Positions 2,013-30,805 of a stretch of DNA of 30,941 nt are shown piece after piece. The notes beneath the pieces were generated by a model that had not been told where the DNA came from, made no database searches, and saw nothing but the letters and a program-made list of their open reading frames with translations. The stretch spans positions 1 through 30,941 of the IMG/VR virus record IMGVR_UViG_3300023179_000349; one strand, written 5' to 3'. Position numbers and translations under genes: made by a program. This DNA is from a virus. Numbering within the stretch: the first letter of the stretch is position 1; the number at the start of each line of letters is the position of its first letter.

Positions 2013-4778
2013 ATGGCGACTTATAACCGCCCTGGAGTATACCTAGAAGAAGTAGCCTCTTCCGTACCGGTATCTTCTACCCCTACTTCTACAGTAGCCA
2101 CATTCATGGGCTATTTTGCTAAAGGCCCTCTTGACGCTACTCTAGTATCGTCATGGAGCCAGTTCACGTCTTTGTATGGCGACATTTCTGCTAACTCTGC
2201 AGATGCGGATGCTGCTACTGCGGTTTACCTATTCTTTGCTAATGGTGGAAGCCAGTGCTATGTTCAGCGTGTAATGGTTACTGTAACCGCAGTATCTAAC
2301 ACAGCTACATCAGCTAGCACTACTTTGACCATTGTTTCAGCAAGCAGCCTTGCTACATCAGATGGTGGCTCTACTGGAACAATCACTGCTGCTAACGCAA
2401 TTGGAGCAACTATTACCGGTAACGGTATTTCTGCCGGAACCATTATCACCAACGTTGCGTCAACTACACTTACCCTAAGTAAGACCGCTACCGTACCTTC
2501 TGGAACTTCGCTTACAATTACTAGCGCAACTGCTTCTAAGGTAGACATCAAGGGTAACACTACAGCAGTAGTTGGAGCCCAAACTCCATCTGTTAGCGGA
2601 ACTAGCGTTACTCTCGTTACTGGTGCTAGCACTGCAATTAGCAGCGCTACAGTTTCTTATACTAGCCCTAATACCACAATTACTGCTGCTGGAACCACTT
2701 TCGTAGCCGGTAACACATACACCATTACGGGATGTGCTCCTGCTGGTTATAACGGAACATGGACTGCTCAAACAGGTTCAGGTTCAGGTTCTTTGATTAT
2801 TAACGTTGGTACTACCAGCTTGGGTAACTTCACTACTCAGGGAACAATTACCACTAACACTGCTCACAGCATTAAGCCTGGTCAAACAGTAACTATTGCT
2901 GGTACAGCGTCTTCTGGTTCTACCCCATCTACAATTTACAACGGTAACTTTGTAGTAACCGCTACTCCTACAGCATCTAGCTTTACTGTAGTAAACACTC
3001 AGTCGCCTTCCTCAGCTATTACAACAGCTGGTACAGTGACCGGACAAAGCGCAACAACAGAACTTACGCTTACTGCTAAGAGCCCAGGTGTTTGGGGAAA
3101 CAGCCTTTATTACGACATCTCAAGCTCTACAGCTAGCTCAGGCTACCCAGGTAAGTACTTTAACTTGGCTATTTACTCGGGTGGAACAAGCGCTGGATAC
3201 ATTGTTGAACGCTTTAGCGACATCACCATGTTGGCTAGCGATCCTGCTTACGCGGTAACTGTTATTAACTCTTCATCTAACTATGTAGTAGCTACTGACC
3301 CTAACGCAGCTAACCACACAACTGCTAACTTCTTAACCACAATGACTCCGCTAAGCACTGCACTAGTAGGTCAGACAGCCACTTCGACTGGGGCTCTTGG
3401 CTCTTCTACATTGGTTAACCTAAGCAGCGTGTCATCTGCAATTAACGCAGGTATGTACGTAGCCGGTAGCGGTGTTACTAGCGGTACTACAGTTACTAGC
3501 TATGGCGCTACTCCGTCCATCATTAACATCCAGACTCCTACTTATGCAGCTCCAAATATTACGTTGTCTACTGCTAGCGCACACAACATCGCTGTTGGCG
3601 CGACTGTAGTTGTGTCTGGTGTTACCCCAACAGGTTACAACGGTACTTGGACAGCACAGTCAGGTACAACGGGTACAACACTTGTAATTAACGTAGGTTC
3701 AAACCCTGGTGCTATTACAGCAATCGGTACTGTAACATCTAACACTGCTGTACTAAGCGCAGCTATGACTATTCCTGCATCTACTAACTTGGTGTTCTCA
3801 AACACCCCGTTGATTTCTGGAGCAGATGGTCTTTTTGCTACTAACACCTCTACAGCAAATAACACTGCAATTGCTGCTGCTACATCTCTAGCAAAGCTAG
3901 ATGCAATTAGCCAGCCTATCTTGCTAAATGCTTGTGGTGTTACTGCTGCCACTGACGTAAACGCTATGCTAACTTACGCCTACAACCGCGGTGACGTGTT
4001 TGTACTGATTGACCCTACGCAGGCAAGCCTGGATGTATCAGGTCAGCTAGCCCTAGCTAACGCTTACACTGGTGGTACTGCTGGTTCTGGAGCCCTTGCG
4101 TTTGGTGCGGTTTATTATCCCAACTTAACAATTCCGAGCCCTACATCAAGCGTGCCAGGTGCTACTGTTACCGCCTACCCAGGTGGAGCAGTTGCAGCTA
4201 AGTATGCTACAACCGACGCTTCTAGAGGCGTATTTAAATCTCCTGCAGGTTTAGATGCTCGTCTATCAGGTGTTCTATCTGTAGCAAGCTTAACTAACAC
4301 CGAACTTGATTACCTAAACAACGGTACTACTAGCCTAAACACGTTCTCTACTTCTACACCAGTAAACGCTATTCGCTACATACCTGGTTCTGGAATCGTA
4401 GTTATGGGTGCTCGTACACTTAGCAGCACATACAACAACCGCTACATTTCGGTTCGTAGAAGCCTAATTTACTTACGCAAGACCCTTACAGACGCAACTG
4501 CATTTGCCTTGTTTGAGTCAAACGATGAGCGTCTATGGAACCGTTTGCAGACTACCTGTGAAGCAATCCTGATTAACTTCTGGCAATCAGGAGGTCTAAA
4601 GGGTAGCACATCATCAGACGCTTTCTACGTAAAGGCAGACAGCTCTATCAATACTTCAGCTAGCGTAGCTGCTGGTGAAGTTCACCTAGAAATCGGTGTA
4701 GCGCTTCAGCGCCCTGCTGAATTCGTAGTTATCCGTATTAGCCAGTACGACAGTGGTTCTGTTGTAACAGTCCTATAG
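2013..4778 (+). CDS. Contractile tail sheath protein with two large inserted regions
   Basis: The product has 921 residues and forms the contractile sheath around the tail tube. The N-terminus MATYNRPGVYLEEV is the classical sheath start, followed by SQCYVQRV near residue 85. The conserved LTAKSPGVWGNSLYYDIS follows at about 350-367, SGADGLFA near 600, and the C-terminal RRSLIYLRKTL...FALFESND...RLQTTCEAILINFW domain ends with EFVVIRISQ. Ordinary sheaths have roughly 400-650 residues. The excess lies in two Thr/Ser/Gly-rich beta-type insertions at about residues 91-349 and 446-599, which probably decorate the outer surface. The ribosome binding site is AAGGAG 9 nt before ATG. The tube gene follows 12 nt later. 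The sheath call is secure; insertion boundaries are approximate. Confidence 0.96.
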   Translation: MATYNRPGVYLEEVASSVPVSSTPTSTVATFMGYFAKGPLDATLVSSWSQFTSLYGDISANSADADAATAVYLFFANGGSQCYVQRVMVTVTAVSNTATSASTTLTIVSASSLATSDGGSTGTITAANAIGATITGNGISAGTIITNVASTTLTLSKTATVPSGTSLTITSATASKVDIKGNTTAVVGAQTPSVSGTSVTLVTGASTAISSATVSYTSPNTTITAAGTTFVAGNTYTITGCAPAGYNGTWTAQTGSGSGSLIINVGTTSLGNFTTQGTITTNTAHSIKPGQTVTIAGTASSGSTPSTIYNGNFVVTATPTASSFTVVNTQSPSSAITTAGTVTGQSATTELTLTAKSPGVWGNSLYYDISSSTASSGYPGKYFNLAIYSGGTSAGYIVERFSDITMLASDPAYAVTVINSSSNYVVATDPNAANHTTANFLTTMTPLSTALVGQTATSTGALGSSTLVNLSSVSSAINAGMYVAGSGVTSGTTVTSYGATPSIINIQTPTYAAPNITLSTASAHNIAVGATVVVSGVTPTGYNGTWTAQSGTTGTTLVINVGSNPGAITAIGTVTSNTAVLSAAMTIPASTNLVFSNTPLISGADGLFATNTSTANNTAIAAATSLAKLDAISQPILLNACGVTAATDVNAMLTYAYNRGDVFVLIDPTQASLDVSGQLALANAYTGGTAGSGALAFGAVYYPNLTIPSPTSSVPGATVTAYPGGAVAAKYATTDASRGVFKSPAGLDARLSGVLSVASLTNTELDYLNNGTTSLNTFSTSTPVNAIRYIPGSGIVVMGARTLSSTYNNRYISVRRSLIYLRKTLTDATAFALFESNDERLWNRLQTTCEAILINFWQSGGLKGSTSSDAFYVKADSSINTSASVAAGEVHLEIGVALQRPAEFVVIRISQYDSGSVVTVL
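2283..3059 (+). repeat. Sheath insertion 1: beta-module repeats
   Basis: Codons for about residues 91-349 lie between the sheath motifs CYVQRV and LTAKSPGVWGN. They encode a GTTVTxV/LSKTATVPSGTSLTI module (about 95-175), a module with PAGYNGTWTAQ near residue 245 and a third with IYNGNFVV near 308 ending AITTAGTV. Related modules recur in the second sheath insertion, the gp6-like protein and the large fibre. Boundaries are by eye. Confidence 0.65.
3348..3809 (+). repeat. Sheath insertion 2: nested beta-modules
   Basis: Codons for about residues 446-599 lie just before the sheath motif SGADGLFA. They encode the first half of a GMYVAGSGVTSGTTVTSYG module, then a complete YNGTW module (PTGYNGTWTAQSGTTG near residue 541), then the second half of the first module (LSAAMTIPASTNLVFSN). 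One module therefore appears to be inserted in another. Confidence 0.6.
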
Positions 4779-4790
4779 GAGGAAATATAA

Positions 4791-5420
4791 ATGGCACAGA
4801 GCGCAATCTCACGCTATTCAAAATTAGCAACTGACCCTTTAAGAAATTTTAGGTTTATTGTTGATTTTCGTGTAACCGGAGACACCGGTGTACCAGGCTC
4901 ATCTGCTGCTGGTATAAACAGCTTCTTGAAGTTTAAGGGCGGGTTTACCTCAGTTCAGGGCCTTACAATGTCAATTGACCCAATCAGCTACCGTGAAGGT
5001 GGTATGAACACATCCTTGCACATGGTTCCTGGACGTGTCACTTTCCAGCCAATTACTTTGTCTCGCGGTGTTATCCTAGGCCAAAGCGAAGCTATCCAGT
5101 GGTTTAAGCAACTATTTGCTGCATCTTCTGGTGAAGGTATTGCTGGTGTAGACGGTTCATCTTTCCGCTGTGATTTGGACATCTATGTTCTAGACCACCC
5201 AATCACCGGTAGCCCAAACATTAGCGCTTCAGACATCGTTAGCAAATCTGCTTACAAGATGAAGTTCATTATCCACAACGCGTTTATTACCAGCCTTAGC
5301 TATTCTGACCTAGCTGCTGGAGGTAACGAGATTCTATCTGAAACAATGACTTTGGTTCATGAGGGAATGTCAGTTCAGCTAGCTAACTTTGGTTCAAACG
5401 TACCTGCAACACTGACATAA
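4791..5420 (+). CDS. Tail tube protein (T4 gp19-like)
   Basis: The product has 209 residues, matching the family of T4 gp19-type tube proteins, which stack as hexamers to form the inner tail tube. The N-terminus contains DPLRNFRFIVDF, typical of the family, followed by a VQGLTMSIDPISYREGG segment. In gp19-like proteins the xVxGlxxxxxxxxYReGGxN motif is characteristic. The segment ITLSRGVILGQSEAIQWF is also typical (L.RG...s.....W). The start has a strong GGAGGAAATATAA ribosome binding site. It lies directly after the sheath, as in nearly all myoviruses. No odd features; it lacks the beta-module insertions seen in its neighbours. Confidence 0.95.
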   Translation: MAQSAISRYSKLATDPLRNFRFIVDFRVTGDTGVPGSSAAGINSFLKFKGGFTSVQGLTMSIDPISYREGGMNTSLHMVPGRVTFQPITLSRGVILGQSEAIQWFKQLFAASSGEGIAGVDGSSFRCDLDIYVLDHPITGSPNISASDIVSKSAYKMKFIIHNAFITSLSYSDLAAGGNEILSETMTLVHEGMSVQLANFGSNVPATLT

Positions 5421-5437
5421 TTTAATAATTAAAAATC

Positions 5438-5446
5438 TGGTAAAAT
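5438..5446 (+). promoter_or_regulatory. Extended -10 promoter candidate
   Basis: TGGTAAAAT lies 26 nt before the chaperone ATG at 5472, in an AT-rich gap between tube and chaperone. It is a TGn-TAAAAT extended -10 without a good -35. The same TGGTAAAAT occurs in the stronger promoter near 30826-30834, which supports it. Confidence 0.45.
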
Positions 5447-5471
5447 AGCTATATCTAATTAGGAGTATTAA

Positions 5472-6272
5472 ATGACGAACAACATAAGCGATGACCCAAA
5501 TCTAATCTCAAAGTATGCTGAAGAGTTTACTAAGGAACCTGAAGTTGAAATTAAGACGGTGGCTCCTTCTAACTCAAATGTATTTCTTCCAGGCGGCTTT
5601 ATTGCTAAAGATGGGTCTTTGATTAAATATGGTGAAGTTAGAGAACTTACTGGTATAGACGAAGAGGCTATATCAAAAGCAGGTTCTCCGGGTAAAGCCC
5701 TAGCCGCAATGCTTAATCGCGGTGTAACAGCTATTGGTTCGTTGATGGTAGACAGAACTGATTTAGACCAGCTTCTTAGCGGGGATAGAGATGCTCTACT
5801 GATTGGAATTCGCAGAGTTACTTTTGGTGACACAATTGAATTTGAGTTCCCATGCCCACACTGTAAAACCGAGCTAGAGGTATCTGTGGACCTTGTAAAA
5901 GATGTCCCAGTTAAAGAACTAGAGGACCCTATTAACGATAGAACGTTCACATATAACTCTAAGAAAAATGGAGTGATAGTTGTGGGTCTGCCTACTGGAG
6001 CGGTTCAGAAAAAGCTTGTGGAAAACTCAGATAAGACTAGCTCTGAGTTAAATACTATTTTACTTGCAGGATGTTTAAAATCTGTTAATGGAGAGCCTGC
6101 ATTAGGTGCCAGCACTGCGCTAAACTTAGGTATGGCTGACCGTGACGGCGTCATTAACGAGATTCTTGCACGTAACCCGGGCCCACGCCTCGGGGAGGTG
6201 AAGACGACTTGCGAGGCTTGTGGTGAGGATATTCCTCTACCACTGTCGTTAGCCGACTTGTTTCGTCTATAA
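5472..6272 (+). CDS. Tail assembly chaperone / baseplate gp26-like protein
   Basis: The product has 266 residues. The core LDQLLSGDRDALLIGIRRVTFGDTIEFEF followed by CPHC matches T4 gp26-type baseplate/chaperone proteins, whose hallmark is LL.GDR.ALL.ALR...YG...F...CP.C. Two Cys pairs, C128-P-H-C131 and C247-E-A-C250, look like a split zinc site. Position between tube and tape measure is the tail-chaperone slot of myoviruses; such proteins keep the tape measure soluble while the tube polymerises around it. Start: ATG with AGGAG 6 nt upstream. The gene probably also yields a longer product by +1 frameshifting near its 3' end into the ORF at 6253-6408. Confidence 0.8.
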   Translation: MTNNISDDPNLISKYAEEFTKEPEVEIKTVAPSNSNVFLPGGFIAKDGSLIKYGEVRELTGIDEEAISKAGSPGKALAAMLNRGVTAIGSLMVDRTDLDQLLSGDRDALLIGIRRVTFGDTIEFEFPCPHCKTELEVSVDLVKDVPVKELEDPINDRTFTYNSKKNGVIVVGLPTGAVQKKLVENSDKTSSELNTILLAGCLKSVNGEPALGASTALNLGMADRDGVINEILARNPGPRLGEVKTTCEACGEDIPLPLSLADLFRL

Positions 6273-6408
6273 AGAAAAAGACTACGAACAACTACTCGAC
6301 CAATATGAAGCACTATCTAGATCATTTCCTGGCTGGACACTTTCAGATATAAGAAATCTGTCCGTAAGAGAACGTAAAAACTGGTTGTATCGCACAACCC
6401 GGAAATAA
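6253..6408 (+). CDS. Frameshift extension of the tail chaperone (+1 frame)
   Basis: The +1 frame relative to the chaperone opens after a TAG at 6250-6252 and stops at TAA 6406-6408. It has no ATG, GTG or TTG near its beginning, so it cannot easily be translated alone. It encodes YEALSRSFPGWTLSDIRNLS followed by VRERKNWLYRTTRK, the helical pattern ending in RER..WL common in second tail-chaperone products. A shift anywhere in 6253-6269 would fuse it; the most attractive site is TTT C at 6261-6264, where tRNA-Phe can slip from UUU to UUC. That would add 47 residues after Phe264, about 311 in total. The exact site is inference. Confidence 0.7.
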   Translation, partial: PTCFVYKEKDYEQLLDQYEALSRSFPGWTLSDIRNLSVRERKNWLYRTTRK

Positions 6409-6417
6409 AGGTAGAGT

Positions 6418-8574
6418 ATGGCGAGTGTAAAAAGCTCTTTTGGTTTAGGCGGAGGCACATCTAAAGCCCGCCTTGTCGCCGACCTTACCGAAGAATACAA
6501 AAAGCTTAATAACGTTCTTAAAGAAACTGAGAAGCTATCTAAAAGTATTTCCGGTAGTCTAAGGGGCGGAAAAGGCGGAACCGGTAACAGCTCTGTAGAC
6601 GCCATGTCTCAAATGACTGGTCCTTCAGGACCTCCTGGTCCACCCGCTCCTCCAGCCCCACCTGCTCCGCCTGCACCGGGAGCTCCTGGCTTCCCTGGCG
6701 GCGGCGGAAGTAGCAGCGCTGCTAGCAGCTCTTGGTCAGCCATGAAAGCTATGGGCCTGACTGCAGTAACTGCACTTGCTTCGGGCATAGATGCTGAACA
6801 ATATATTCAAAACGATATAGCTCGTCGTCGCTTTGGTTTCTTCTCTGGGGTATACAGCAGAAAAAATGATAACATTGGCACCATAGCCGGTATGTCTGCT
6901 TTTAAGGCCATGGCCGATATGGGTACTGCTACTAGTGCTATGGACGCCGCTAACGCTGCTATGGCCGGTAATTCCATGGGCTTAATGAGTGGCCTTAAAA
7001 ACTATAGTACCATCATGAGAAGCACAGCTGGTATTTCTAACGTAATGCCGGGTGTTGGTCTTGAAGCCAGCATGGGTGCTGTAGGTGCGCTTAACCAAGG
7101 TGCAAGTGTTAATAAGCTTCGTATGATTGGTATTAACGTGCGTGATGCCAAAGGATTTATGCGTGATGTTGAAGACATTGCTCGCGACCTTTGGAACTCT
7201 CTAAACAGAAATAAGTCTGGTAGAGGCATGATAACTGAGTCTGACCTCTCGTTCTCTTTGCAGCCTGGTAACTCAATTGCGATGATGCTTGACCAGTATT
7301 TTGGTACTGATGCTGTATTAAAGCAAGCGGTTATTTCTTACCTATTCCAGTTTGCTAAAAACAATGGGGCAAAAGTTGGTGGAGGCTATACTAGCGAAGC
7401 CGGTAGAGCTGAGCTTAATACTACTGGAGCAAACCCTGGAATTACTCAGAGCATTGGTCGTAGAAACGCCGCGGGTACGGCTAACGTAAATGCGTACACT
7501 TCCTCCGGTGTTATTGGTATTCAAACTGCAAATGACATAATTGCTTCAACTACAAGATTAGCTACCGCAATCATGCCTCTTGCTGAAATTTTTGTCGGAG
7601 CTACAACTGCTGCTCAAACCCTTGGTGGAGCAGGTAACGGTACTGGCGGTATTTTAATTAAGGGTGCTCTTGACGCCGCAAAAGGCGCTCAGGATATTAT
7701 TACTGGTGCAATGGGTGCGGTACTAAAAAGCCCTACTGGTTTAGCTATTATTGCAGCAGCTCTAGGCACTACGGCTATTGTTCGCAACGCTACTCAACAA
7801 CAGGATGAGTATTGGGCGCAATTAATAAGTCAAGGAAAGTTAACTCCAAATGATAGCGCCCCTAGCTTATTTAGTATGCCCGGAGTTATACCGGACCCAA
7901 ACCCTTATTTTGGAAGAAATCCAAATGCTCAAGGTGGCAGCACCGACCCTGGTAGCACGGGCACTGGTACTACTGGCACTGGAAATGGTGGTATGAGTGG
8001 TAGCCATCAGGGTGTAAAGCCTGTTAAACCTATTACCCACAAGCCATCAGACCTACAAAATCAAAAGATTCATCCTAAAGGATTTGTGCAATCTAGCGAT
8101 ACTGTTGTCCAATGGGCGGGTAAAGTTCTTAAACAGCTGGGTGCTCCAGTAACTGGAACTAACTTAGCTGCCATGCTTTCATGGGTCAACGCGGAAAGTA
8201 CTTCTAATAATAACTATCAAACTTGGAATAACCCGTTAAATACAACTCGTTCGTATAACGGCTCTATTTCTAAAAACTATGCTGGTGTACAGGAATTTGC
8301 TACTGAAGCCGACAGCGTTGCTGCAACTGTAGCTACTATTAAGCAGGATAATTTTAAAGACATCTATAATGCGCTTGTAAAAGATAAAGGTTTAGATGAC
8401 TTAAATGTGGCTGTAAAAGCTGATAAGTGGGGAACTGGGAATATTGGTGTTGCTAGAAATATCACTATTAACGTTAATGGGGCACAGGACACTATGAGCA
8501 TTGTGGAAGCTATTAAACAGTATTTAACAGAACAAGCAATTATGGATAATGCAACCGGTGGAGGAGGTCATTAA
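6418..8574 (+). CDS. Tape measure protein with C-terminal lysozyme-like domain
   Basis: The product has 718 residues; it follows the chaperone and precedes the baseplate genes, the tape-measure position. Residues 1-50 include a helical ADLTEEYKKLNNVLKETEKL. Residues about 67-99 are a Pro/Gly/Ala-rich collagen-like stretch. Ala/Gly/Met-rich hydrophobic helices follow, including TAIMPLAEIFVGATTAAQ and a hydrophobic LAIIAAALGTTAIV. Residues about 559-690 form a lysozyme-like domain: VQWAGKVLKQLGAP, SWVNAES with a candidate acidic residue E593, NNPLNTT, and YAGVQEFATEADSVAATVATI. This pattern is familiar from actinobacteriophage lysins and tape measures. The domain probably digests peptidoglycan during DNA entry. 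The ribosome binding site is AAGGTAGAG. The catalytic assignment is tentative. Confidence 0.8.
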   Translation: MASVKSSFGLGGGTSKARLVADLTEEYKKLNNVLKETEKLSKSISGSLRGGKGGTGNSSVDAMSQMTGPSGPPGPPAPPAPPAPPAPGAPGFPGGGGSSSAASSSWSAMKAMGLTAVTALASGIDAEQYIQNDIARRRFGFFSGVYSRKNDNIGTIAGMSAFKAMADMGTATSAMDAANAAMAGNSMGLMSGLKNYSTIMRSTAGISNVMPGVGLEASMGAVGALNQGASVNKLRMIGINVRDAKGFMRDVEDIARDLWNSLNRNKSGRGMITESDLSFSLQPGNSIAMMLDQYFGTDAVLKQAVISYLFQFAKNNGAKVGGGYTSEAGRAELNTTGANPGITQSIGRRNAAGTANVNAYTSSGVIGIQTANDIIASTTRLATAIMPLAEIFVGATTAAQTLGGAGNGTGGILIKGALDAAKGAQDIITGAMGAVLKSPTGLAIIAAALGTTAIVRNATQQQDEYWAQLISQGKLTPNDSAPSLFSMPGVIPDPNPYFGRNPNAQGGSTDPGSTGTGTTGTGNGGMSGSHQGVKPVKPITHKPSDLQNQKIHPKGFVQSSDTVVQWAGKVLKQLGAPVTGTNLAAMLSWVNAESTSNNNYQTWNNPLNTTRSYNGSISKNYAGVQEFATEADSVAATVATIKQDNFKDIYNALVKDKGLDDLNVAVKADKWGTGNIGVARNITINVNGAQDTMSIVEAIKQYLTEQAIMDNATGGGGH

Positions 8575-9947: not shown

Positions 9948-9965
9948 AGGATATGGAGGTAAATA

Positions 9966-10250
9966 GTGGCTGCACCGTCAAACGATTCTAGATACTATGA
10001 TTCTCTCATAGACTACATTGCCCCTAAAAAAGATGGGGAAAACGTCCCTGTTATTTTCTATGATTTTAGTGAATTAGGTACTGTTAACTACATCAACTAT
10101 CAGTGGAAGCAGGGAGACCGCATAGATGCTTTGGCTAGTAAGTTTTTCCTATTTCCATCCAGATGGTGGATAATTGCTGAATTTAATCCAAAAATTGATG
10201 ACTGGTTGAATGTTCCTGCTGGAACATTGGTTAGGATTCCACGTGTCTAA
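9966..10250 (+). CDS. LysM-like baseplate protein (gp53/gpX type)
   Basis: The product has 94 residues and starts at a GTG with GGAGGT 6 nt upstream. The second half (YQWKQGDRIDALASKFF, SRWWIIAEFNP, VPAGTLVRIP) is a LysM-type fold: W..GDrlD.IA..f.g....WW.Ia..N......l.pGt.lriP. Phage tail proteins of the P2 gpX and T4 gp53 kind carry this fold. It probably binds the central hub or peptidoglycan and serves at the baseplate centre. The next gene begins within its last codons, at the GTG at 10243. Confidence 0.85.
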   Translation: MAAPSNDSRYYDSLIDYIAPKKDGENVPVIFYDFSELGTVNYINYQWKQGDRIDALASKFFLFPSRWWIIAEFNPKIDDWLNVPAGTLVRIPRV

Positions 10251-11553
10251 TTACGTAAGCGTGTATTTTCCGACCAGTTCGCAACAGCCTAAACGTATTT
10301 ATAAGGTGAACTACAAGCAAGAAGTGTTTGCCCATGACTACGCTATAGTTGAGCTTAGAGACTGGAACCTAGACCCTTTAAATATCAAACCAGGTTCGTT
10401 AATGGTATTGACTATTAAGAACAAAGAGTACAACGGATATGTACATGATATTCGTAACGTTCAATCTGCTAATGAGCACTTTACAAAAATTGGATTTATT
10501 GGTGCATCTTACGTAATGAAACAATCTAGTCAGAAGATTTACCGCAATATGTCGGCTGACCAGATTGTGGCAGAAATAGCTAAAAAGTATAACTTTGCTT
10601 ATAAGGTTACTCCGCATCCTCGTATCTACCCGCAGGTATCTCAGGCGGGGATGACAGACTGGGAGCTTATGGTTCGCCTGGCTAAACAGTCTGGATACTT
10701 TCTTAGAGCAGAAAATACCGAATTATACTTCCAACCACTGACAGAAGACTTTACGGATTTAATCACAGAAGCAGTTAGCTTTCAAAAAGCTGAAGGTGGA
10801 TTTAAGCCTGTAAATCCTATTTATTCATTTAAACCAGTTATCAGTGAGACAATAAGACATTTAGGGTTTAAAAAGGCCGCTACTTCAGTAGCCGGTATCG
10901 ATCCTGTAAGCGGTCAGGTATTTAAGATAACCACACAAAACTCATTCTCACCCAGCAGACAGTTTTCAAATCAAGAATTTTTTGATGACCATGAAACGGG
11001 CGCTGTGGCAAATGATTACGACACTGCCCTGTTTTTAGCCAATGCTTCGGATGAGTATAGTAGATTTCCATACGCAGCTGATGTCCAGACCATAGGAGTT
11101 TCTTCGATGAGACCGGGACTTCCTGTGTACCTTAAAAATGTTGGCACTGAGTATTCCGGCTACTGGACCGTGCTTAGTATTACGCACCAAGTAGTAGAAA
11201 AAACTTTAAACCAGCAAATGTATGTATGCGATATGAAAGTTGCTTCTGACTCTTTGGGTAGAGCATCAGACCCTAGAATTCCAGAAGTACCGGCAGCAAA
11301 CCCTACTAGACGCATTATTCCTAATCAAAAAAATAAAAACATTAAACCTAAGAGCATTATTTATTTACCGGCTGTTACCTCAAAAAGATATCAACAAACT
11401 GAATTGGTTGATAGAATAAACCGAGCTAACCAGACTGGACCTTTTGTTGCTACGTCTAGATGGGGCTCTACCCATAGAGATTTAAGTTACAACTTGCCTG
11501 ATGAGCGTATGCCTCAAGCGGTTTGGGATAAGTTGAGGTCAAATGCAATCTGA
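10243..11553 (+). CDS. Baseplate hub protein (gpD/VgrG-N/gp27-like)
   Basis: I prefer the GTG at 10243 (MSNYVSVYFP), which overlaps the LysM gene by 8 nt; an in-frame ATG at 10210 would overlap by 41 nt and add residues encoded by the LysM tail. The product is 436 aa. The sequence shows the hub pattern of P2 gpD-like proteins: beta-rich N-terminus with IVELRDWNLDPLNIKPGSLM and YNGYVHDIR, then IYRNMSADQIVAEIAKKYNF, TDWELMVRLAKQSGYFLR and LYFQPL. Such proteins form the trimeric hub between tube and spike. It is followed by an 11-nt overlap with the OB-fold spike gene, its expected partner. Confidence 0.85.
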   Translation: MSNYVSVYFPTSSQQPKRIYKVNYKQEVFAHDYAIVELRDWNLDPLNIKPGSLMVLTIKNKEYNGYVHDIRNVQSANEHFTKIGFIGASYVMKQSSQKIYRNMSADQIVAEIAKKYNFAYKVTPHPRIYPQVSQAGMTDWELMVRLAKQSGYFLRAENTELYFQPLTEDFTDLITEAVSFQKAEGGFKPVNPIYSFKPVISETIRHLGFKKAATSVAGIDPVSGQVFKITTQNSFSPSRQFSNQEFFDDHETGAVANDYDTALFLANASDEYSRFPYAADVQTIGVSSMRPGLPVYLKNVGTEYSGYWTVLSITHQVVEKTLNQQMYVCDMKVASDSLGRASDPRIPEVPAANPTRRIIPNQKNKNIKPKSIIYLPAVTSKRYQQTELVDRINRANQTGPFVATSRWGSTHRDLSYNLPDERMPQAVWDKLRSNAI

Positions 11554-12310
11554 CATTAAATATCATGGTGTTTATCGTGGAGTTGTAGTTAATACAAATG
11601 ACCCTGCAAATTTAGGCCGTGTTACCCTAAAAGTCCCTCAAGTTTCTGGTGTAGAAGTTACAAACTGGGCATACCCAGTTATTGGTGTACCTGAAAATAG
11701 GAAAGTGCCATACGGCTCTTTCTATGACTACACTGACCAATATGCAGGTAGCCTAACCGCTACGGCAAACACTAGCGCTGGCGGTGCAGTAGCAAATACC
11801 CCGATTGCTATGCGTCTCAATACCACCGATACTAACTCGACCCAGTTTATCTATGTAGATGGTGGAAATAATACTCAAATTACTTTTAAGAAAACAGGCA
11901 TTTATAACGTTCAGTGGTCAGCTCAATTTGAAAACTCTAACGTAGCAGACCAAGACGTATCTGTATGGATGAGACAAAATGGCACTGATATTGACGGCTC
12001 TACCGGACTTGTGTCAATTCCAAGCAAACATGGTACAACTAATGGACACTCTATTGTGGGGTGGAACTTCTTTGTAAATGCTAGAGAAGGAGATTACGTA
12101 GAACTGTGGTGGACTACAAGCCATGAAAACGTTTATATTGCTCACTATCCAGTGAATACCAGTCCTGCGTATCCCTCTACGGCTTCTGTAGTAGCTACTG
12201 TAGACCTTGTAGGTGGATTTATACCCAGCTCTGGAGATAATTGCTGGGTAATGTTTGAGGGCGGGGACCCTAATTTCCCATTATGGCTAGGAGCATTTAA
12301 TGTCAATTAA
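11543..12310 (+). CDS. gp5-type OB-fold spike with inserted jelly-roll domain
   Basis: The product has 255 residues. Residues 1-57 (YRGVVVNTNDPANLGRVTLK, VPQV.., NWAYPVIG) and 226-255 (GFIPSSGDNCWVMFEGGDPN, FPLWLGAF) are the two halves of the gp5/VgrG OB-fold that plugs the baseplate hub. Between them about 165 residues form a different beta domain: TQFIYVDGG, FKKTGIYNVQWSAQFEN, VSVWMRQNGTDI, REGDYVELWW, resembling C1q/jelly-roll domains in phage fibres. No lysozyme domain is present, unlike T4 gp5. The inserted domain may bind a surface ligand or alter tip shape. The gene overlaps the hub before it and gp25 after it. Confidence 0.85.
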   Translation: MQSDIKYHGVYRGVVVNTNDPANLGRVTLKVPQVSGVEVTNWAYPVIGVPENRKVPYGSFYDYTDQYAGSLTATANTSAGGAVANTPIAMRLNTTDTNSTQFIYVDGGNNTQITFKKTGIYNVQWSAQFENSNVADQDVSVWMRQNGTDIDGSTGLVSIPSKHGTTNGHSIVGWNFFVNAREGDYVELWWTTSHENVYIAHYPVNTSPAYPSTASVVATVDLVGGFIPSSGDNCWVMFEGGDPNFPLWLGAFNVN

Positions 12311-12725
12311 CGTACTTAATTATCCATTTTCTTTCGGTACTAACACTTCCGGTACCTATATCACTACCCTATCGTCTACGTCTGACCTTAGAAAAATTTG
12401 GCAAGATAGGGTGCTGTTAGTTTTGGGTACCAGACCCGGTGAGCGTGTAATGCGCCCAGATTTTGGAAGCAATCTTTATAGTGTTGTTTTTGAACCTGAG
12501 TCTACTGCCGGACAAATAGCTAAAGACAGTATTACCCAGGCATTTACTGACTGGCTTCCAGCTTTAGATTTAAGAGAAATAAACCCTACATTTGACAAGC
12601 TAAACGGTGTTTTAACGGTAAGTATTGTCTATGGTCTGCCCAACGGGGAAGTAGATAGTGTTACAATTAATACTGGAATATTCAACCGTTCTGGTGACTT
12701 ACTTCAGGAGATAAACAATGGCTAA
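12300..12725 (+). CDS. Baseplate wedge protein gp25-like
   Basis: The product has 141 residues, a normal size for the gp25/gpW family, whose members nucleate sheath polymerisation from the baseplate. Key motif: LRKIWQDRVLLVLGTRPGER followed by VMRPDFGSNLYSVVFEP, the EPR-like core (here GTRPGERVMRPDFG) typical of the family. The C-terminal part (LDLREINPTF, SIVYGLPNGEVDSVTI) completes the small alpha/beta fold. The ATG overlaps the spike stop by 11 nt, and its own end overlaps the baseplate-J start by 8 nt, consistent with one translationally coupled baseplate operon. Confidence 0.95.
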   Translation: MSINVLNYPFSFGTNTSGTYITTLSSTSDLRKIWQDRVLLVLGTRPGERVMRPDFGSNLYSVVFEPESTAGQIAKDSITQAFTDWLPALDLREINPTFDKLNGVLTVSIVYGLPNGEVDSVTINTGIFNRSGDLLQEINNG

Positions 12726-14976
12726 TACAGTTAGCGTCACTAAAAACTATATTCCGCAAATTGATTACGTATCAAGAGACTATACTGCAATTTTAGCGGA
12801 TTTGACTACGGTCGCTAAGCAGTTTAACCCTACCTGGGCTGTAAGCGACCCTACAGATATTGGTGTTGCATTACTAGAAACCTTTGCTTATCTAGGTGAT
12901 ATTCTAAGCTTCTACACAGACCGTATGGCTTCCGAAGGGTTCCTAGGAACAGCCAGCCAACGCTATAGCGTATTGCAGATTGCGGCTATGCTAGGATATA
13001 CCCCAACCCCAAGTAGCGCTGCTACCGTATCCTTGTCCGTAAGAAACAACAGCTCTACTGCCTCTGTCACCATTCCCGCTAAAACTCAAATTTCTTCAAC
13101 TTCAGTAGTTAACGGGCAAAGTACACAGGTAACTTTTGAAACCGATTCTGATTTAACTTTGGCAGCAAGTGCTACTGGAAGCGTGAGCGCTACTCAGGGA
13201 GTAACTACTACTTTAGAGTCTCTTGGAACTTCTAATGGTACCCCTAGTCAAGCATTCAAGATTTCACAGACTGGTGTTATTATTAATAGCAGCGGCAGCA
13301 ACATTCAGGTATATGTCGGCGGTGCCCAATATACTTATAGCTCATCTTTAGTAGATAACAGCGCTTATGATTCCGTTTTTACAACCACTATGGATGCTGA
13401 TGGGTTTACTTACATCCTATTTGGTGACGGTGTTTCAGGTAAGATTCCACCTGCTACATACACAGTTACAGTTACATATAGGGTGGGTGTAGGAGCTGCT
13501 GGAAACGTTGCAGCCGGTACTCTGGCCCAGACTTTCAACGGGAGCTATAACGTAACCGTTACTCAGGTTGGTGCTGCTACCGGTGGTGCAGACGCAGAGT
13601 CTACTGACTCCATTAGAGTTAATGCTCCTAGAGCCTTGCGTACATTACGCCGCGCAGTTTCTCTAAAAGACTACTCGTACTTAGCCCTTCAAGTATCTGG
13701 TGTTTCTAAAGCTAACGCCGAAGCGGCAGTATGGTCTAACGTAAACCTATACGTTGCTCCTTTTGGAACTAGCGCAACTAGCTCTACTACTATTGGTCCT
13801 TCATTAAGCTTTAGCGGTGTGGCCATTACAGCTAGCGATGGCACAGCTGGTAGCGGATACTTAACCTATACCGCTTCATCTGGAACACCATTTAGCGGAC
13901 TAACTGCTAACACTAGCTATGTAACAATTACAGGCGCTGTGCCAGTTATGTATAACGTCTATGTTCCTACACTCGTAACAAACGTTGGTGGAGGTGGTTC
14001 ATCCTTCACTATAGCTACGGATTACGTTTCCCCGCTGCTTCCGGCTTTCTCTACATCCGGATCAAGTAACTTGGTTATTAGCGCGGTTGGAACAAACACC
14101 GCTGCGTTTAATACGTTAAAGAGCAATGTTATTAATTATTTTACAGACAAAGTTGCTCCTAACGTATCTTTGACAGTTAATCCGCCTGTGTATGTTCCTG
14201 TAAATCTAGAGATGACCTTGCACGTTCTTCCGCAGTATAACCAAGGAAGCGTAGTTACTCAGGTCCAAAACGCATTAACTAACCTGGTATCTTACAACAA
14301 CTCTTTCTTTGCTGACCGCATTCCGCCTCACTTTATTTTGAATGCGATTACAAATATTGACGGTGTTGACTACGCTACAGTTGAGCACTTACGTAAAAAC
14401 TCAAATGAGCAAATTTATACTGTCAGCAGCTGGAGCAGAACTACCAGCACTGCTACGTTTGTAGTCCCATATACCCACAGCATTATTCCCGGTCAAAATG
14501 TTCGTATTTATAACGTCAATGCTGGAATTGATGGAACATATGGTGTAGTCTCTACTACAAGCCAAAGCATAACTATTAGCGTACCTACCGGCTCTGCTAG
14601 CGCAACTGGAGTAACAGTCACATCTACCACAAGCCCTGGAGCAACATCTCTACCTGTGAGCAGCGTATCTGGAATATCTGCTGGAATGTACGTGACAGTA
14701 CCTTCTGTCTCTAGCCCATTCTCAGCGACTACTGTTACTGTCACTAGCGTAGGTACTAGCTCAATTAACATCAGTAGCACAGTAAACAACGTTATTGCTA
14801 TAGGTTCTGCTGTTCTATTTTCATATGCACCTACTGGAACAGACAACTACATTAAAGCAATTGGATTAGACTCAACAACCTCGGCTGGTATTACCAGCTA
14901 TGGAGTTAGTTGTAACTCAAATGAAATTCCTGTTAAGGGAACCTTTATCATTACCGCTACTGGCGGACTTTCTTAA
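12718..14976 (+). CDS. Baseplate wedge gp6 / baseplate-J-like protein with inserted modules
   Basis: The product has 752 residues. The N-terminus (IDYVSRDYTAILADLTTVAK, DPTDIGVALLETFAYLGDIL) and middle (FGDGVSGKIPPATYTVTVTY, RVGVGAAGNVAAGTL, ALRTLRRAVSLKDYSYLALQ) are the baseplate-J core that builds the wedge ring. About residues 350-465 form a Ser/Thr-rich insertion after NVNLYVAPFGT. Near residues 575-705 two beta modules, one with GIDGTYGVV and one with GMYVTVPS, interrupt the C-terminal region before the family-typical end NEIPVKGTFIITATGGL. Typical gp6-like proteins without insertions are roughly 400-660 aa. The start overlaps gp25. Confidence 0.9.
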   Translation: MANTVSVTKNYIPQIDYVSRDYTAILADLTTVAKQFNPTWAVSDPTDIGVALLETFAYLGDILSFYTDRMASEGFLGTASQRYSVLQIAAMLGYTPTPSSAATVSLSVRNNSSTASVTIPAKTQISSTSVVNGQSTQVTFETDSDLTLAASATGSVSATQGVTTTLESLGTSNGTPSQAFKISQTGVIINSSGSNIQVYVGGAQYTYSSSLVDNSAYDSVFTTTMDADGFTYILFGDGVSGKIPPATYTVTVTYRVGVGAAGNVAAGTLAQTFNGSYNVTVTQVGAATGGADAESTDSIRVNAPRALRTLRRAVSLKDYSYLALQVSGVSKANAEAAVWSNVNLYVAPFGTSATSSTTIGPSLSFSGVAITASDGTAGSGYLTYTASSGTPFSGLTANTSYVTITGAVPVMYNVYVPTLVTNVGGGGSSFTIATDYVSPLLPAFSTSGSSNLVISAVGTNTAAFNTLKSNVINYFTDKVAPNVSLTVNPPVYVPVNLEMTLHVLPQYNQGSVVTQVQNALTNLVSYNNSFFADRIPPHFILNAITNIDGVDYATVEHLRKNSNEQIYTVSSWSRTTSTATFVVPYTHSIIPGQNVRIYNVNAGIDGTYGVVSTTSQSITISVPTGSASATGVTVTSTTSPGATSLPVSSVSGISAGMYVTVPSVSSPFSATTVTVTSVGTSSINISSTVNNVIAIGSAVLFSYAPTGTDNYIKAIGLDSTTSAGITSYGVSCNSNEIPVKGTFIITATGGLS

Positions 14977-14988
14977 GGAGAATAAATA

Positions 14989-15726
14989 ATGGCTACAGCT
15001 GTATACCCAGGTTCCGTAAAAACCTATACAGATAAAGTAAATGGCGTTAACATCGTTGATGCCGCTGATATTAACAGCGTTCAGGCTGAAGTTACAGCAA
15101 TAGAAACCGGTGTTGGTACTTCACCGGCTACTACAACCCTTGGCGCAAGCGTGGGTTCATTTACTACAACTCCAGCAGCATCATTGACTGCTAGGGTATC
15201 TAACCTAGAAGCTGGGCTTACCTCAGACATTACGTCTACTACATTTGCAGGTGCCACTGATGGTTCTCACGTAGGATACACGCTACTGTACACAGGAAAC
15301 TATACTTCTGCCCCGGGTGCTCTTAGCATTAGCGGCGCATCTTATGCGAAAATTGTAGTGGTTGTTAGGATAACTACCATTGGTTCCGGTACCGGTGTTA
15401 CTTTAAACGTAAATAACGCATCAACAGTTAAGTACGGATTTTTTAACTACACTACGGGTGTGCCTACTGCAGGTGGTGGGTCCACAGCTGGTGGTTCTTT
15501 TCCTATTAGTAACGTACTTACTCCAGCATCTGGTGACACTATTACAGCTGAAATCTATAACGTAAACGGTACAGGAGCTAAAACTTGTACTTGGGTAAAT
15601 GGTGCCGGTTTTGGTTCCGCTATTGCTACTGCTGGTGGAACGATTACTTCTGCAGTTACTACTCTTACATTACAATCAAGTGCTTATCCTTCAGCAGCCA
15701 CTTACGCAATTTATGGTGTTAAGTAA
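14989..15726 (+). CDS. Putative tail fibre protein
   Basis: The product has 245 residues; AAGGAG precedes the ATG. The N-terminal part (VYPGSVKTYTDKVNGVNIVD, AADINSVQAEVTAIETGVG) matches the short attachment motif of many phage fibre and receptor-binding proteins (t.k.dg....A.dvN.lq.ei.aiE..lG). The C-terminal part from about residue 95 is beta-rich, with repeated Gly/Thr/Ser and the ending TYAIYGVK, resembling jelly-roll fibre tips. It follows the baseplate-J gene, where P2-like phages place gpI/fibre genes. Receptor binding is inferred. No chaperone is recognisable next to it. Confidence 0.7.
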   Translation: MATAVYPGSVKTYTDKVNGVNIVDAADINSVQAEVTAIETGVGTSPATTTLGASVGSFTTTPAASLTARVSNLEAGLTSDITSTTFAGATDGSHVGYTLLYTGNYTSAPGALSISGASYAKIVVVVRITTIGSGTGVTLNVNNASTVKYGFFNYTTGVPTAGGGSTAGGSFPISNVLTPASGDTITAEIYNVNGTGAKTCTWVNGAGFGSAIATAGGTITSAVTTLTLQSSAYPSAATYAIYGVK

Positions 15727-15737
15727 GGATTAATTAA

Positions 15738-18700
15738 ATGGCTGTTTATGGTAATAGATTTTATGGTGCATTTAGGTATGGCTCAGCTGCCACTACTGAC
15801 ATTAGCGTTTACCCGTTTAGTGCACAATCATTAGACTATTGCTCAATTAAACTGTCTTGGGTTTATCCTACTAGCTCTGAATACACAAAATTCTTAATTG
15901 TTAGAAGCGCATCTGGCTTTCCAGTAGTTCCTGATTCTGGTGATGTTATTTATACAACTACTAGAACCACACTATTAACTGCCGGTACAGGTGGTACATC
16001 TTTGCTAGGTACTACTGGTACACTGACTGATACCGGGGCCTTTTATGACCCTATTACCGGAGCTGCAACCCCCACATATACTTCTGTAATAACTACTGCT
16101 GTCAATGACGCGACATCCGTTACCTTAACTGCTGCAAATCCTAACATCGCGGTAGGTCAAAGAGTTACATATATTTCTACTGGAAACTTAACTGGGGCTA
16201 ACTCTGGAAGCGGCATTATTGGTGGCACTACAGTAAAAGCAATTAATGGAACCTCTTTAACTTTAAGCAAACCTGCTACTATTCCAGACGGTACTACATT
16301 AACTTTTTCAGCTAATCCACTTACCCCAGGTAAAAGTTATTATTACTCTGCTTTTGTACTTACTACCGCCGATATTTGGCAAAGAGTTGGTACTGCGCTA
16401 GGAACGTCTATCAAAGACTATAGTACAACTAATGCAATGTATGATTCTTTGCCTTACTTATATAAGGCGTCATTAGTATCTTATGGTTCAAACAACTTTA
16501 ACAAGAATAATGATTTATACAACTTCTTGAGAGTCATCGGTCTTCAATACGATTTAATTAAGACCAAAGTAGAAAACGCTAAAAATAGATATGATGTAGC
16601 AAACCTTGACGGAAAATTAATTCCGGCTTTGATGGACCAAATGGGCCTTAACTATGAGAGTGGTTTGGGGCTTCAACAGGGTAGAAGACTTCTTACAAAT
16701 ATAGATAATATCTATTTAACTAAAGGCTCTAACCTAGGTTTTAAAAAGTTTTTAACAGCGTTTACTGGATATTCTTCTACGATACTATCAAACAAAAATC
16801 TATTTTTAACTTTAGATTGTTCTTCTTTTGAATACGGCGAAGGTTTTTGGAATACAGTTAGCACAGGTACAGCAACCCTACTTGCTACAAACACCACTAT
16901 TGAAGGTGGGTCACCAATTCCATATGCAGAGACTAGTTCACCCAGCGGGTTCCCTAATAGTCAACTAGGGTTCTTAAAAGTAACTGCTACAGGTAGCACA
17001 CCTGAATTTTCATACGGAAACTCTCCAGATACTTTGACCGTATCTAATAACGCCCCTGTAGGTATGACTTCTATAAACGCTTCAAATATTTATACTGGAT
17101 ATGTTACAGTAACCACTGATACAGACCACGGATTAAGTATTGGGCAATATGTAAACCTTCAAGGATTTACAACAAACGGTAATGGGGTGTATAAAGTAAT
17201 TGGAATACCTAATTCTAAGAGTTTTATTTACTACAACAGCAACTATGCTTCGCCTTTTGGCGGAACTGTAAGCCTTGCTGTAACTAATACGATTCCAGTT
17301 CAATCAACATCTACAAGCGCCTCTATAGCTATTCAGTCAATAAGCGGAACAAGCTTTACTGGAGTAAACTCTTCTTCAAATATATTCACAGTATCTAGCA
17401 CTACTAACGTTAGCGTTGGCCAAACAATAACGGTTACTTCTGGAACAGGTACTTTAAGCGCAGTTACTAAAGTCACTGGTATAGTAAGCAGCACCCAGTT
17501 TGCCGTAGATAACGTACCTACTGTAGCTTTATCTGGGGCTACTATAGCTTTAAATGGCCCTACTAACGTCTCAATAACCACGGCCTCTCAGTCATTTGCT
17601 GTAGGTCAATATGTAAAAATTTCTAACGTTGTGCCTGCTGCGTATAACGGAACCTGGCAATTACAGACTGGAACTACATCTACAAAAATTGTTATAAATA
17701 TGAATGCCAACCCTGGTAACATAACCACAGCTGGCACAGTATCTGCTACAAGCGGCTCCAACGCAACAATAACTACAGGTACCACACATAGCTTTGTCCC
17801 TAACCAGCCAGTAAATATTTCGGGAGTTGTTCCATCAGGTTACAATGGAACTTGGATTGCTCAGCCTGGAACTACTGGAACATCGTTAGTTCTTAATTTG
17901 CCTACTGTCCTTGGCCCTATAACCACAGCTGGTTCTGTAAAGTCTTTGGCTACTGTAAATGTGTATGACCCAACCCTTTATGGAATACCTGTAACAGGCG
18001 GAAGTTCATATGTATTTAGCATCGCTAGCTATGCAAAAACCACGTATAGAAGCATACGTTTGGGTACTAGATGGTACGACAAATTAGGTAATCCGATTCT
18101 TCCTGTTAGCTCTGTTTTAATATCTAACGCAGTTGGAACTTGGACAGCCTTAAATAAAGCTTCATCAACCGCATTTACGGCTCCTAGTACCGCTGCTTAC
18201 GCTGTGCCATATATTCAAATTACATCTCCGTCTGTAGGAGAAATTCACTACTTTGATGCCGCACAATTTGAGCAAGCTTCTATCGCAACTACTTACGCTG
18301 ACAGTAGAAGAGTAGACATTTATTTAAACGCTAATCGTATAAACCAAATTATAAATCCTGGGTTTGAGTCTACTACAAACAACTGGATAGCCACAGGTAC
18401 AAGCGGATTTGCCCCTGAAACAGGTGCATCAAATGTTTATCCTACTAGCTCAGTTGGTTTAGGAAACTCGGTTAGCACGCAATCAGCAAAGCTTACAGCT
18501 AATGCTAGCAGCTCTGTTCTTACTAACGCAGTTACACTTGCTAGCGTAAGCAGCAGTTCTACAACCTTTACTTTAGGTTCTGGAGATACTTCTGCACTAT
18601 ACGTAGGACAAAGACTGGCTGTCACATCTGGTACAGGTACTTTGAATGGAACTACAGTTATCACGGCTATAACTAATAGCACTCAATTTACAGTCAATAC

Positions 18701-19250
18701 TGCGCCTACGGTAGCTTTATCTGGAGCTGGCGTAACCGCAACAGGAACTACAGTAGCGGCATCTACAAGCTACTACCTAAGCGCATACATTAAGGGTGCG
18801 GCTACTAATACAGCTACTATAAAAATTGATTGGTACACATCTGCTGGTGTTGCTTGTAGCCCTGTAGCATCCGCTTCATCATCTGCTACTACACTTTCCA
18901 CTTCGTTTACTAGAGTATCTGTAAGCGCTGTGTCGCCTTCTGATGCTGCTATTGGGGTAGTGACCATAACCATAACCGGAGCTATCGGAAATAATTATTA
19001 CGTAGATTCTGTATTGCTTGAGGCATCTAGCACTTTAAATAACTATTTTGACGGCTCTACTGGCTATGGTGTACTAGACGATACGGTGTGGGAGCAGAAT
19101 ACCTTGCTAAATAGAGGAACAGCTAGCAATGCTAGAAGTGACTATTATCCTAACCGTATCCTGACGTTTACTAGGCTAAACTCAGTACTGCCGGACTACC
19201 TCCCGCTAGGAAGTAACTGGGCTATATTTACGGCCATATCCCCTACTTGA
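15738..19250 (+). CDS. Large mosaic baseplate/fibre protein (gpI-like, Fn3-like and CBM-like domains)
   Basis: The product has 1170 residues. Residues about 30-215 form an Fn3-like domain (SIKLSWVYPTSSEY, FLIVRSASGFPVVPDSGDVI, then LTPGKSYYYSAFVLT), split by a beta module at about 115-193. Residues 230-345 (MYDSLPYLYKASL, LYNFLRVIGLQYDLIKTKVE, LIPALMDQMGLNY, GFKKFLTAFTGYSS) resemble P2 gpI-like tail proteins that link baseplate and fibres. Two CBM4_9-like domains begin near 358 (FEYGEGFW) and 873 (NPGFESTTNNW). Each is interrupted by Thr/Ser-rich modules: several YNG types at about 448-741, and a TSGTGTLNGTTVIT type at about 930-1010. It probably binds host surface sugars. Its TGA overlaps the next promoter's -35. 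Confidence 0.8.
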   Translation: MAVYGNRFYGAFRYGSAATTDISVYPFSAQSLDYCSIKLSWVYPTSSEYTKFLIVRSASGFPVVPDSGDVIYTTTRTTLLTAGTGGTSLLGTTGTLTDTGAFYDPITGAATPTYTSVITTAVNDATSVTLTAANPNIAVGQRVTYISTGNLTGANSGSGIIGGTTVKAINGTSLTLSKPATIPDGTTLTFSANPLTPGKSYYYSAFVLTTADIWQRVGTALGTSIKDYSTTNAMYDSLPYLYKASLVSYGSNNFNKNNDLYNFLRVIGLQYDLIKTKVENAKNRYDVANLDGKLIPALMDQMGLNYESGLGLQQGRRLLTNIDNIYLTKGSNLGFKKFLTAFTGYSSTILSNKNLFLTLDCSSFEYGEGFWNTVSTGTATLLATNTTIEGGSPIPYAETSSPSGFPNSQLGFLKVTATGSTPEFSYGNSPDTLTVSNNAPVGMTSINASNIYTGYVTVTTDTDHGLSIGQYVNLQGFTTNGNGVYKVIGIPNSKSFIYYNSNYASPFGGTVSLAVTNTIPVQSTSTSASIAIQSISGTSFTGVNSSSNIFTVSSTTNVSVGQTITVTSGTGTLSAVTKVTGIVSSTQFAVDNVPTVALSGATIALNGPTNVSITTASQSFAVGQYVKISNVVPAAYNGTWQLQTGTTSTKIVINMNANPGNITTAGTVSATSGSNATITTGTTHSFVPNQPVNISGVVPSGYNGTWIAQPGTTGTSLVLNLPTVLGPITTAGSVKSLATVNVYDPTLYGIPVTGGSSYVFSIASYAKTTYRSIRLGTRWYDKLGNPILPVSSVLISNAVGTWTALNKASSTAFTAPSTAAYAVPYIQITSPSVGEIHYFDAAQFEQASIATTYADSRRVDIYLNANRINQIINPGFESTTNNWIATGTSGFAPETGASNVYPTSSVGLGNSVSTQSAKLTANASSSVLTNAVTLASVSSSSTTFTLGSGDTSALYVGQRLAVTSGTGTLNGTTVITAITNSTQFTVNTAPTVALSGAGVTATGTTVAASTSYYLSAYIKGAATNTATIKIDWYTSAGVACSPVASASSSATTLSTSFTRVSVSAVSPSDAAIGVVTITITGAIGNNYYVDSVLLEASSTLNNYFDGSTGYGVLDDTVWEQNTLLNRGTASNARSDYYPNRILTFTRLNSVLPDYLPLGSNWAIFTAISPT
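16080..16316 (+). repeat. Beta module inside the Fn3-like domain
   Basis: The codons encode about residues 115-193 of the large fibre: VGQRVTYIS, GTTVKAINGTSLTLSKPATI then PDGTTLTF. The closest relative in the window is the sheath segment around 2400-2530 (LTLSKTATVPSGTSLTI). It separates the Fn3-like half ending TGAFYDP from the strand LTPGKSYYYSAFV. Confidence 0.6.
17080..17960 (+). repeat. Tandem YNG-type modules inside the first CBM-like domain
   Basis: The codons encode about residues 448-741 of the large fibre. At least three related units are visible: one with TNGNGVYKVIGIPNSKSF, one with PAAYNGTWQLQTGT near residue 634 and one with PSGYNGTWIAQPGT near 701, plus a VGQTITVTSGTGTLS unit between them. 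Matching units occur in both sheath insertions. Confidence 0.65.
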
Positions 19251-30798: not shown

Positions 30799-30805
30799 CT
30801 TTGTA

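Follow-up and report, generated by a model that had tools for sequence, protein, structure and literature searches.

Loop-inserted beta-barrel modules in the sheath and fibre of a metagenomic myovirus, with a putative role in weak adhesion

Introduction

Small beta domains that decorate virion proteins, such as immunoglobulin (Ig)-like domains and carbohydrate-binding modules (CBMs), are already known. Ig-like domains decorate the major capsid, tail tube and sheath proteins, and they are thought or have been shown to bind cell-surface glycans (PMC9230969, PMC13033339). In this study we analysed a 30,941-base piece of a metagenomic myovirus (IMG/VR record IMGVR_UViG_3300023179_000349, positions 1 to 30,941; hereafter the window), whose tail sheath protein and large fibre carry three families of small modules, named A, B and C, while a baseplate gp6-like protein holds degenerate copies of A and B. 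Like the Ig-like virion domains, these modules are small beta domains of unrelated virion proteins, exchanged horizontally and probably placed at the surface, and they are optional additions, B occurring in 24 clusters of carrier proteins with copies present in some relatives and absent from others. B is predicted to form an FCCH-type barrel and A resembles a decoration protein, so that both may differ from the Ig-like domains in fold; the modules do differ from them in lying nearly always in internal loops and in being nested one within another.

In the lactococcal 936 phages, CBMs are likewise found in several virion proteins (evolved Dit, major tail and neck passage proteins), include an insertion within the Dit arm and bind in a host-specific manner (PMC6669499). 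However, those are BppA-type CBMs of a different fold, their host binding was demonstrated, and the contractile sheath is not involved. Module B shares its fold with the barrel of the K1F and phi92 endosialidases, with a weak sequence match through one tail-tube carrier. The endosialidase barrel is a single copy in a tailspike enzyme, whereas B is present in many copies in non-enzymatic virion proteins. The best fold match of B, and its best though sub-threshold Pfam match, is the FCCH domain of ubiquitin E1 (PF16190), a eukaryotic enzyme domain; no ubiquitin chemistry is implied for B. Arthrobacter phage Bridgette has a decoration protein (PDB 8eci) of ~125 residues, 72 of which align with the first copy of A in the sheath; that protein is a separate one of the capsid, whereas A lies within the chains of sheath and fibre. 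Contemporary shuffling of protein fragments has been described in phages, with domains recently exchanged in tail, baseplate and receptor-binding proteins; the word sheath has 0 occurrences in the main text of that paper, in which we noted no nested loop insertion of one module family (PMC10684548). A literature search for FCCH together with phage returned nothing relevant, and in open papers we did not find a description of this pair of barrel families, of their nesting, or of a present/absent sheath polymorphism among near-identical phages.

Results

The sheath protein of the window (2013..4778, 921 amino acids (aa); all features are on the + strand unless stated) was identified by Pfam Phage_sheath_1C at aa 810-909, by PHROG tail sheath matches of 1e-28 to 2e-36, and by fold, aa 807-900 matching a contractile-system sheath (VIA Z 10.9) and aa 23-88 matching T4 gp18 (VIA Z 6.8). 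It carries two copies of A and three of B. Module A1 lies at 2274..2528 (aa 88-172), followed by B1 at 2625..2852 (aa 205-280; hidden Markov model (HMM) match at 219-279, 9e-14), which is an extra B just upstream of the resident module B2 at 2844..3038 (aa 278-342; HMM 2e-15). The second copy of A is split: its first half is found at 3405..3506 (aa 465-498; HMM 5e-11) and its second half, which completes A2 in relatives without B3, at 3747..3800 (aa 579-596), with B3 between them at 3507..3746 (aa 499-578; HMM 6e-25).

Sheath relatives were taken from viral contigs (designated by L numbers). Their cores are 63-87% identical and nearly gapless, modules are present or absent as whole units, and the length of the protein ranges from 510 to 921 aa. 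A1 is missing from L009, L014 and L134, and both B1 and B3 are missing from L008, L009, L011, L012, L014 and L017. The place of B1 holds other B copies in L004, L005, L007, L125 and L131-L133, and the second site of the L133 sheath holds three. B3 was seen only in the window and in L004, L005, L006 and L007. B2 is found in all close relatives, but neither in L134 nor in Streptomyces phage LuckySocke; the latter, like phage BRock, has tail genes syntenic with those of the window and a sheath core ~38% identical to it. The L134 sheath (510 aa, 64% core identity) is free of modules. In LuckySocke a different beta-rich segment lies around the first two sites and the A2 site is empty; that segment (L034:11251-11592) looks FN3-like by eye only, and Pfam gave no FN3. 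A more distant sheath lineage (L060, L061, L076 and L082) has B in yet another loop. The modules are true discrete insertions and not core parts of the sheath or fibre. Clean vacant sites exist in sheath, gp6 and fibre relatives, and 115 of the 118 B copies in complete carrier open reading frames (ORFs) are flanked by at least 40 residues on each side; placement is therefore internal, between domain halves, as the original prediction had proposed.

The large fibre (15738..19250, 1170 aa) has a P2 gpI-like region and a CBM_4_9-like region and carries one A, three B and two C. Module A is at 16110..16310 (aa 125-191), was found with the sheath-only A profile and is absent from LuckySocke. A divergent B lies at 17103..17252 (aa 456-505). 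It reached 1e-10 after HMM iteration, its 9.5 bits with the sheath profile equal the best shuffle score, and it is retained in the fibre relatives L021, L032 and L037. The other two B copies are at 17562..17741 (aa 609-668) and 17760..17939 (aa 675-734, absent from L033). C1, at 17373..17558 (aa 546-607), was not seen in L021 or L033. C2, at 18555..18746 (aa 940-1003) inside the CBM-like region, is missing from the same two relatives, where its flanks join directly. L033 has fewer B copies than the window, and L021 has one B at a site vacant in the window. In L033 a Tail_P2_I match (E 0.0027) is followed by a CBM_4_9 match (E 0.0052), both under the curated Pfam cut-offs, which suggests that what is called the fibre in the window is a wedge protein similar to P2 gpI, extended by a fibre part.

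The likeness between sheath and fibre copies was assessed with test profiles made from the sheath copies alone, run against composition-matched shuffles (400 for B). The B profile scored 46.1 bits at fibre aa 675-734 and 44.4 bits at aa 609-668, where the best of 400 shuffles reached 9.5; the A profile scored 25.8 bits on the fibre and 5.7 on its best shuffle. Furthermore, blastp aligned sheath and fibre at 39% identity over 122 residues (E 2e-10). Both families thus have alignable copies across proteins, with sheath-fibre similarity far over the shuffled controls. Module B is ~65-75 aa long, and its iterated profile matched the sheath at aa 219-279, 278-342 and 514-574, the fibre at aa 456-505, 609-668 and 675-734, and the gp6-like protein at aa 578-632. 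The iterated A profile matched the sheath at aa 102-170 and again, in two parts, between aa 465 and 596; in the fibre it matched aa 125-191. Modules of two families had been claimed within 2283-18765 for the sheath, fibre and gp6-like proteins. The coordinates were correct and A and B were confirmed in sheath and fibre, but a third family, C, had been missed (C1 and C2 are 53% identical, E 1.4e-16), and the gp6 copies are insignificant with the sheath profile alone. We also considered A and B as a single family; MAFFT aligns A with B, but profile comparison gave 2.6% probability and this was rejected.

The gp6-like protein (12718..14976, 752 aa) was assigned as a baseplate J/gp6-like wedge protein by Pfam Baseplate_J (6.5e-11) and PHROG baseplate wedge (1.8e-40). 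Its degenerate B (14449..14616, aa 578-633) and degenerate A (14617..14841, aa 634-708, which L021 does without) were found by profile-profile comparison only. With sheath-only profiles B scored -2.3 bits and A gave no match, neither beating shuffles, whereas comparison of the gp6-family profile gave 92% probability for B (E 6e-7, 35 columns) and 96% for A (E 3.5e-9). As judged from sequence, the gp6 copies of the window are decayed or very divergent. Other members of the gp6 family have full-strength B, in another loop in L011, L047 and L058 and in the C-terminal region in L020, L062 and L063. The B of L011 is a clean insertion at a site that is empty in L004, L009 and L014, and the site of the window's degenerate B holds two intact B copies in L020 and is empty in LuckySocke. 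Close by, a gpV-like baseplate protein (11543-12310) with an OB domain has a beta-rich insertion of ~180 aa between the OB halves, with a weak match to the BclA C-terminal domain (E 0.00043, under the cut-off). Since the relative in L004 and L006 has a 76-aa version in which the OB halves join directly, the segment is one more loop insertion, involving a different kind of domain.

The second sheath insertion had been described as A beside B, which does not hold: in the window and L004-L007, B3 sits between strands of one A domain, and the A2 halves are contiguous in other relatives. B is likewise nested inside C in a 1091-aa upstream structural protein of L004 (L004:2821-6093) and in L057 (506-4255). 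The A2 halves together matched one JBD30 baseplate domain (Z 7.0) in a low-confidence sheath model. The exchange of a module block is shown by L012. Relative to L004, its N core has 9/225 nucleotide differences, its middle core 21/273 and its C core 31/846, whereas its A2 block has 99/219. Compared with L011, L012 differs at 31/219 nucleotides in the A2 block and at 98/846 in the C core, and its block is B-free, unlike that of L004. With a core near L004 and an A2 block that resembles L011, the block has been swapped, in the pattern expected of homologous recombination in the conserved flanks. On a core tree of 22 sequences three changes of B3 are required, though most branches are weakly supported.

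AlphaFold2 (AF2) predicted B as seven strands with a predicted local distance difference test (pLDDT) score of 88-96 (~95), with the conserved 'linker' inside the confident fold, indicating an independent barrel and not a part of the sheath fold. A1 had pLDDT mostly 85-91. When A2 was modelled with its nested B, the B part was excellent and the A2 halves were mostly <50, and the full-length sheath model, made with 24 relatives, had pLDDT 50 and could be used just for A1 and some of the core. Against E1 FCCH domains B gave VIA Z 8.0-9.9 (the best, 9.9, with UBA6 FCCH), with 78 residues at 2.1 Å (9qim_B) and 76 at 2.4 Å (4p22_B). The phi92 endosialidase barrel (4hiz residues 255-338) gave Z 8.4 and that of K1F (1v0e residues 423-506) Z 7.2. 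Foldseek agrees with VIA on these nearest folds, no Ig rows were among the matches listed, and viral models sharing the fold include baseplate J-like, wedge and fibre proteins. The fold of B is therefore predicted to be the ubiquitin-E1 FCCH barrel, the same as the phage endosialidase barrel. At the sequence level, E1_FCCH matched 3 of 27 B copies at E up to 0.1 (best 0.025), the B of a tail-tube carrier, which splits PF18906, also matches it (0.0043), and direct search of B against solved structures gave nothing of note. A1 matched the Bridgette decoration protein (8eci_1) at VIA Z 8.2 over 72 residues (2.1 Å, 38% identity), together with a profile match of E 0.0066 and 26 bits under heavy bias correction; a weaker match of module A to lambda gpJ was seen by fold and profile.

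When viral contigs were scanned for the B profile, 162 stretches were confirmed, of which 80 were kept. In all fetched loci B is found in 113 distinct carrier proteins (24 clusters, 155 copies), and those assigned include sheath proteins (phrog_17610/23 and the separate family phrog_205), baseplate wedge and minor tail proteins, the tail tube (PF18906, split by the module) and the head-associated phrog_3287. Among 91 B-bearing loci, 39 have no other protein similarity to the window. Placement in several proteins of one phage had been thought unusual, but it is not peculiar to this phage, as many larger B-bearing viral records have B in 2-5 ORFs. A tblastn search of 50,697 phage genomes on deposit found no B or A1; the sequence relatives are therefore metagenomic, fold-level matches to cyanophage and rhizobial phage proteins aside. 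In bacterial genomes a first scan found no B and a second found 4 weak loci, in long proteins.

Unrelated B copies have a mean column identity of 69% in amino acids, yet the codon homozygosity of conserved residues is, with few exceptions, close to that of background usage, and codon sharing between the sheath and fibre copies of the window does not exceed expectation (z about 0). Between the window and L004, B3 keeps 59 of 65 residues with codons identical at just 35 of the 59. Some copies within one protein have a modest excess of codon identity (z 3-4). The spread of the codon z scores is too wide (sd 1.5) for any but the largest to be trusted. One of these is from two B copies in different carrier clusters (L059:5950-6162 and L022:2524-2736), where 33 of 42 shared residues are codon-identical (z 5.8); this pair is a candidate for recent transfer from one protein to an unrelated one. 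Because synonymous sites are saturated between unrelated copies, the codon data point to an old, protein-selected module family exchanged by recombination and not to a young DNA element. Thus the term protein-level mobile decoration, proposed earlier, is apt for a protein module over a long time. Local duplication and occasional transfer are probably still going on, given the within-protein excess and the few higher cross-protein pairs. The linker DNA was also considered as a conserved recombination site and was rejected, its codons being at background.

Discussion

We think it fairly probable that A, B and C are decorating barrels inserted in loops and spread by recombination, for which weak multivalent adhesion would be the likeliest role. 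The modules would enter by rare illegitimate recombination at loops where the chain ends of a barrel can lie close together, would spread among relatives through homologous recombination in conserved flanking gene segments, and would multiply locally by tandem duplication, with selection at the protein level keeping them. As the sheath is present in many copies per virion, its modules could form an outward-facing array that binds polysaccharide of the host surface or the environment weakly and multivalently, and thus aids adsorption. The outward placement is likely, as insertion domains of sheaths have been reported to lie clear of the tube (PMC9230969). The K1F barrel binds polysialic acid and is a hotspot of host discrimination (PMC12632334), and its residues S460, S468 and G504 are inside the range aligned with B, 423-506. 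Furthermore, Ig-like decorations of mycobacteriophage Douge bind mycobacterial glycans (PMC13033339). Weak adhesion is favoured because of these glycan-binding fold kin, the CBM-like region in a fibre relative and the Douge decorations, and accessory adhesion is accordingly put forward as the likeliest, putative function.

Several observations weigh against this interpretation. The Pfam families of the matching folds were not reached in sequence: for E1_FCCH (PF16190) the window fibre scored 13.7 bits and the best carrier 17.5 against a cut-off of 29.5, and for End_beta_barrel (PF12195) only the tail-tube B of L077 matched, at 14.8 bits against 35 (E 0.028). The poor full-length sheath model (pLDDT 50) leaves the outward placement literature-based (PMC9230969). 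The conserved B residues P-x-x-YNGTW are common to differing phages and may be structural, while a host-specific adhesin would be expected to show more variable loops than B. The Bridgette kin of A is a capsid cement or decoration protein, which fits stabilisation equally well. Finally, no recombination signature (repeat or target duplication) was seen at the insertion boundaries.

The modules could instead be mainly structural, as cement or spacers that stabilise virion parts or set subunit spacing and have no ligand. A capsid decoration protein is the closest solved relative of A, a stabilising effect on the sheath disk has been proposed for extra domains of sheath proteins (PMC9230969), and a generic scaffold would suit a module as strongly conserved among unrelated carriers as B is (mean column identity 69%). 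We nevertheless regard this as rather unlikely: close relatives do without each extra copy while the flanking core is 88-100% identical, so no single copy is needed for assembly, the modules are also found in fibres and head proteins among quite different neighbours, and the K1F endosialidase barrel of the same fold binds polysialic acid. It is more doubtful still that the insertions are near-neutral, with loops that tolerate barrels and modules that persist without a virion function. Presence and absence do shift on short branches and some copies, as in gp6, decay, but the conservation of B3 between the window and L004 (59/65 residues against 35/59 codons) indicates strong purifying selection.

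A mobile element at the DNA level, homing or transposon-like and jumping in frame into virion genes, would explain the near-identical extended motif (xTQTPTGTTNIT...GTV) in unrelated proteins and the few cross-protein pairs with excess codon identity (best L022/L059, z 5.8). It seems very improbable when codons are otherwise near background, with z about 0 for the sheath and fibre copies of the window. Neither repeats nor duplications were seen at the junctions, DNA-level copies with defined ends were not found, the proteins scanned yielded no nuclease or transposase, and the conserved 'linker' belongs to the barrel fold in the AF2 model. Least credible of all is the reading of these regions as normal components of the sheath, gp6 and fibre folds that resemble each other through their Thr/Ser/Gly-rich composition. 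The regions are indeed biased and the gp6 copies of the window alone fail to beat shuffles, but for sheath and fibre the shuffles scored far lower, relatives are cleanly without the segments, B has pLDDT ~95, and the module-free L134 sheath and the clean vacant sites refute this explanation.

A broader proposal, for which we see the case as evenly balanced, is that FCCH-type and Bridgette-type barrels make up a further widespread, promiscuous class of decoration, distinct from Ig-like domains and classical CBMs. Such barrels would colonise loops of almost any virion protein and nest, and on contractile sheaths they would form an adhesive coat that can be exchanged, recombination making it differ between near-identical phages. 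Sheaths are usually viewed as conserved contractile machines, but close relatives here range from 510 to 921 residues by gain and loss of surface barrels. Should the modules bind glycans, the sheath would be a tunable adhesion surface, and the host interaction of uncultured phages may be set in part by modules outside receptor-binding proteins. The vacant and filled sites in near-identical phages are a natural experiment on the insertion of domains into essential proteins without breakage. Naming the fold also aids annotation, as a sub-threshold 'ubiquitin E1' match conceals a common phage decoration domain.

Other observations in the window

On the - strand at 28173-29633, the window encodes a 486-aa protein with a PA14 domain (6.7e-6, over the Pfam cut-off), a probable signal peptide and, by eye, coiled-coil-like stretches. 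Its gene is flanked by those of an M23 peptidase and an NlpC/P60 lipoprotein-like protein, and the product is secreted-looking, which is unusual for a phage. A tRNA-Thr (anticodon tgt) is found at 30726-30799, at the right end of the fragment.

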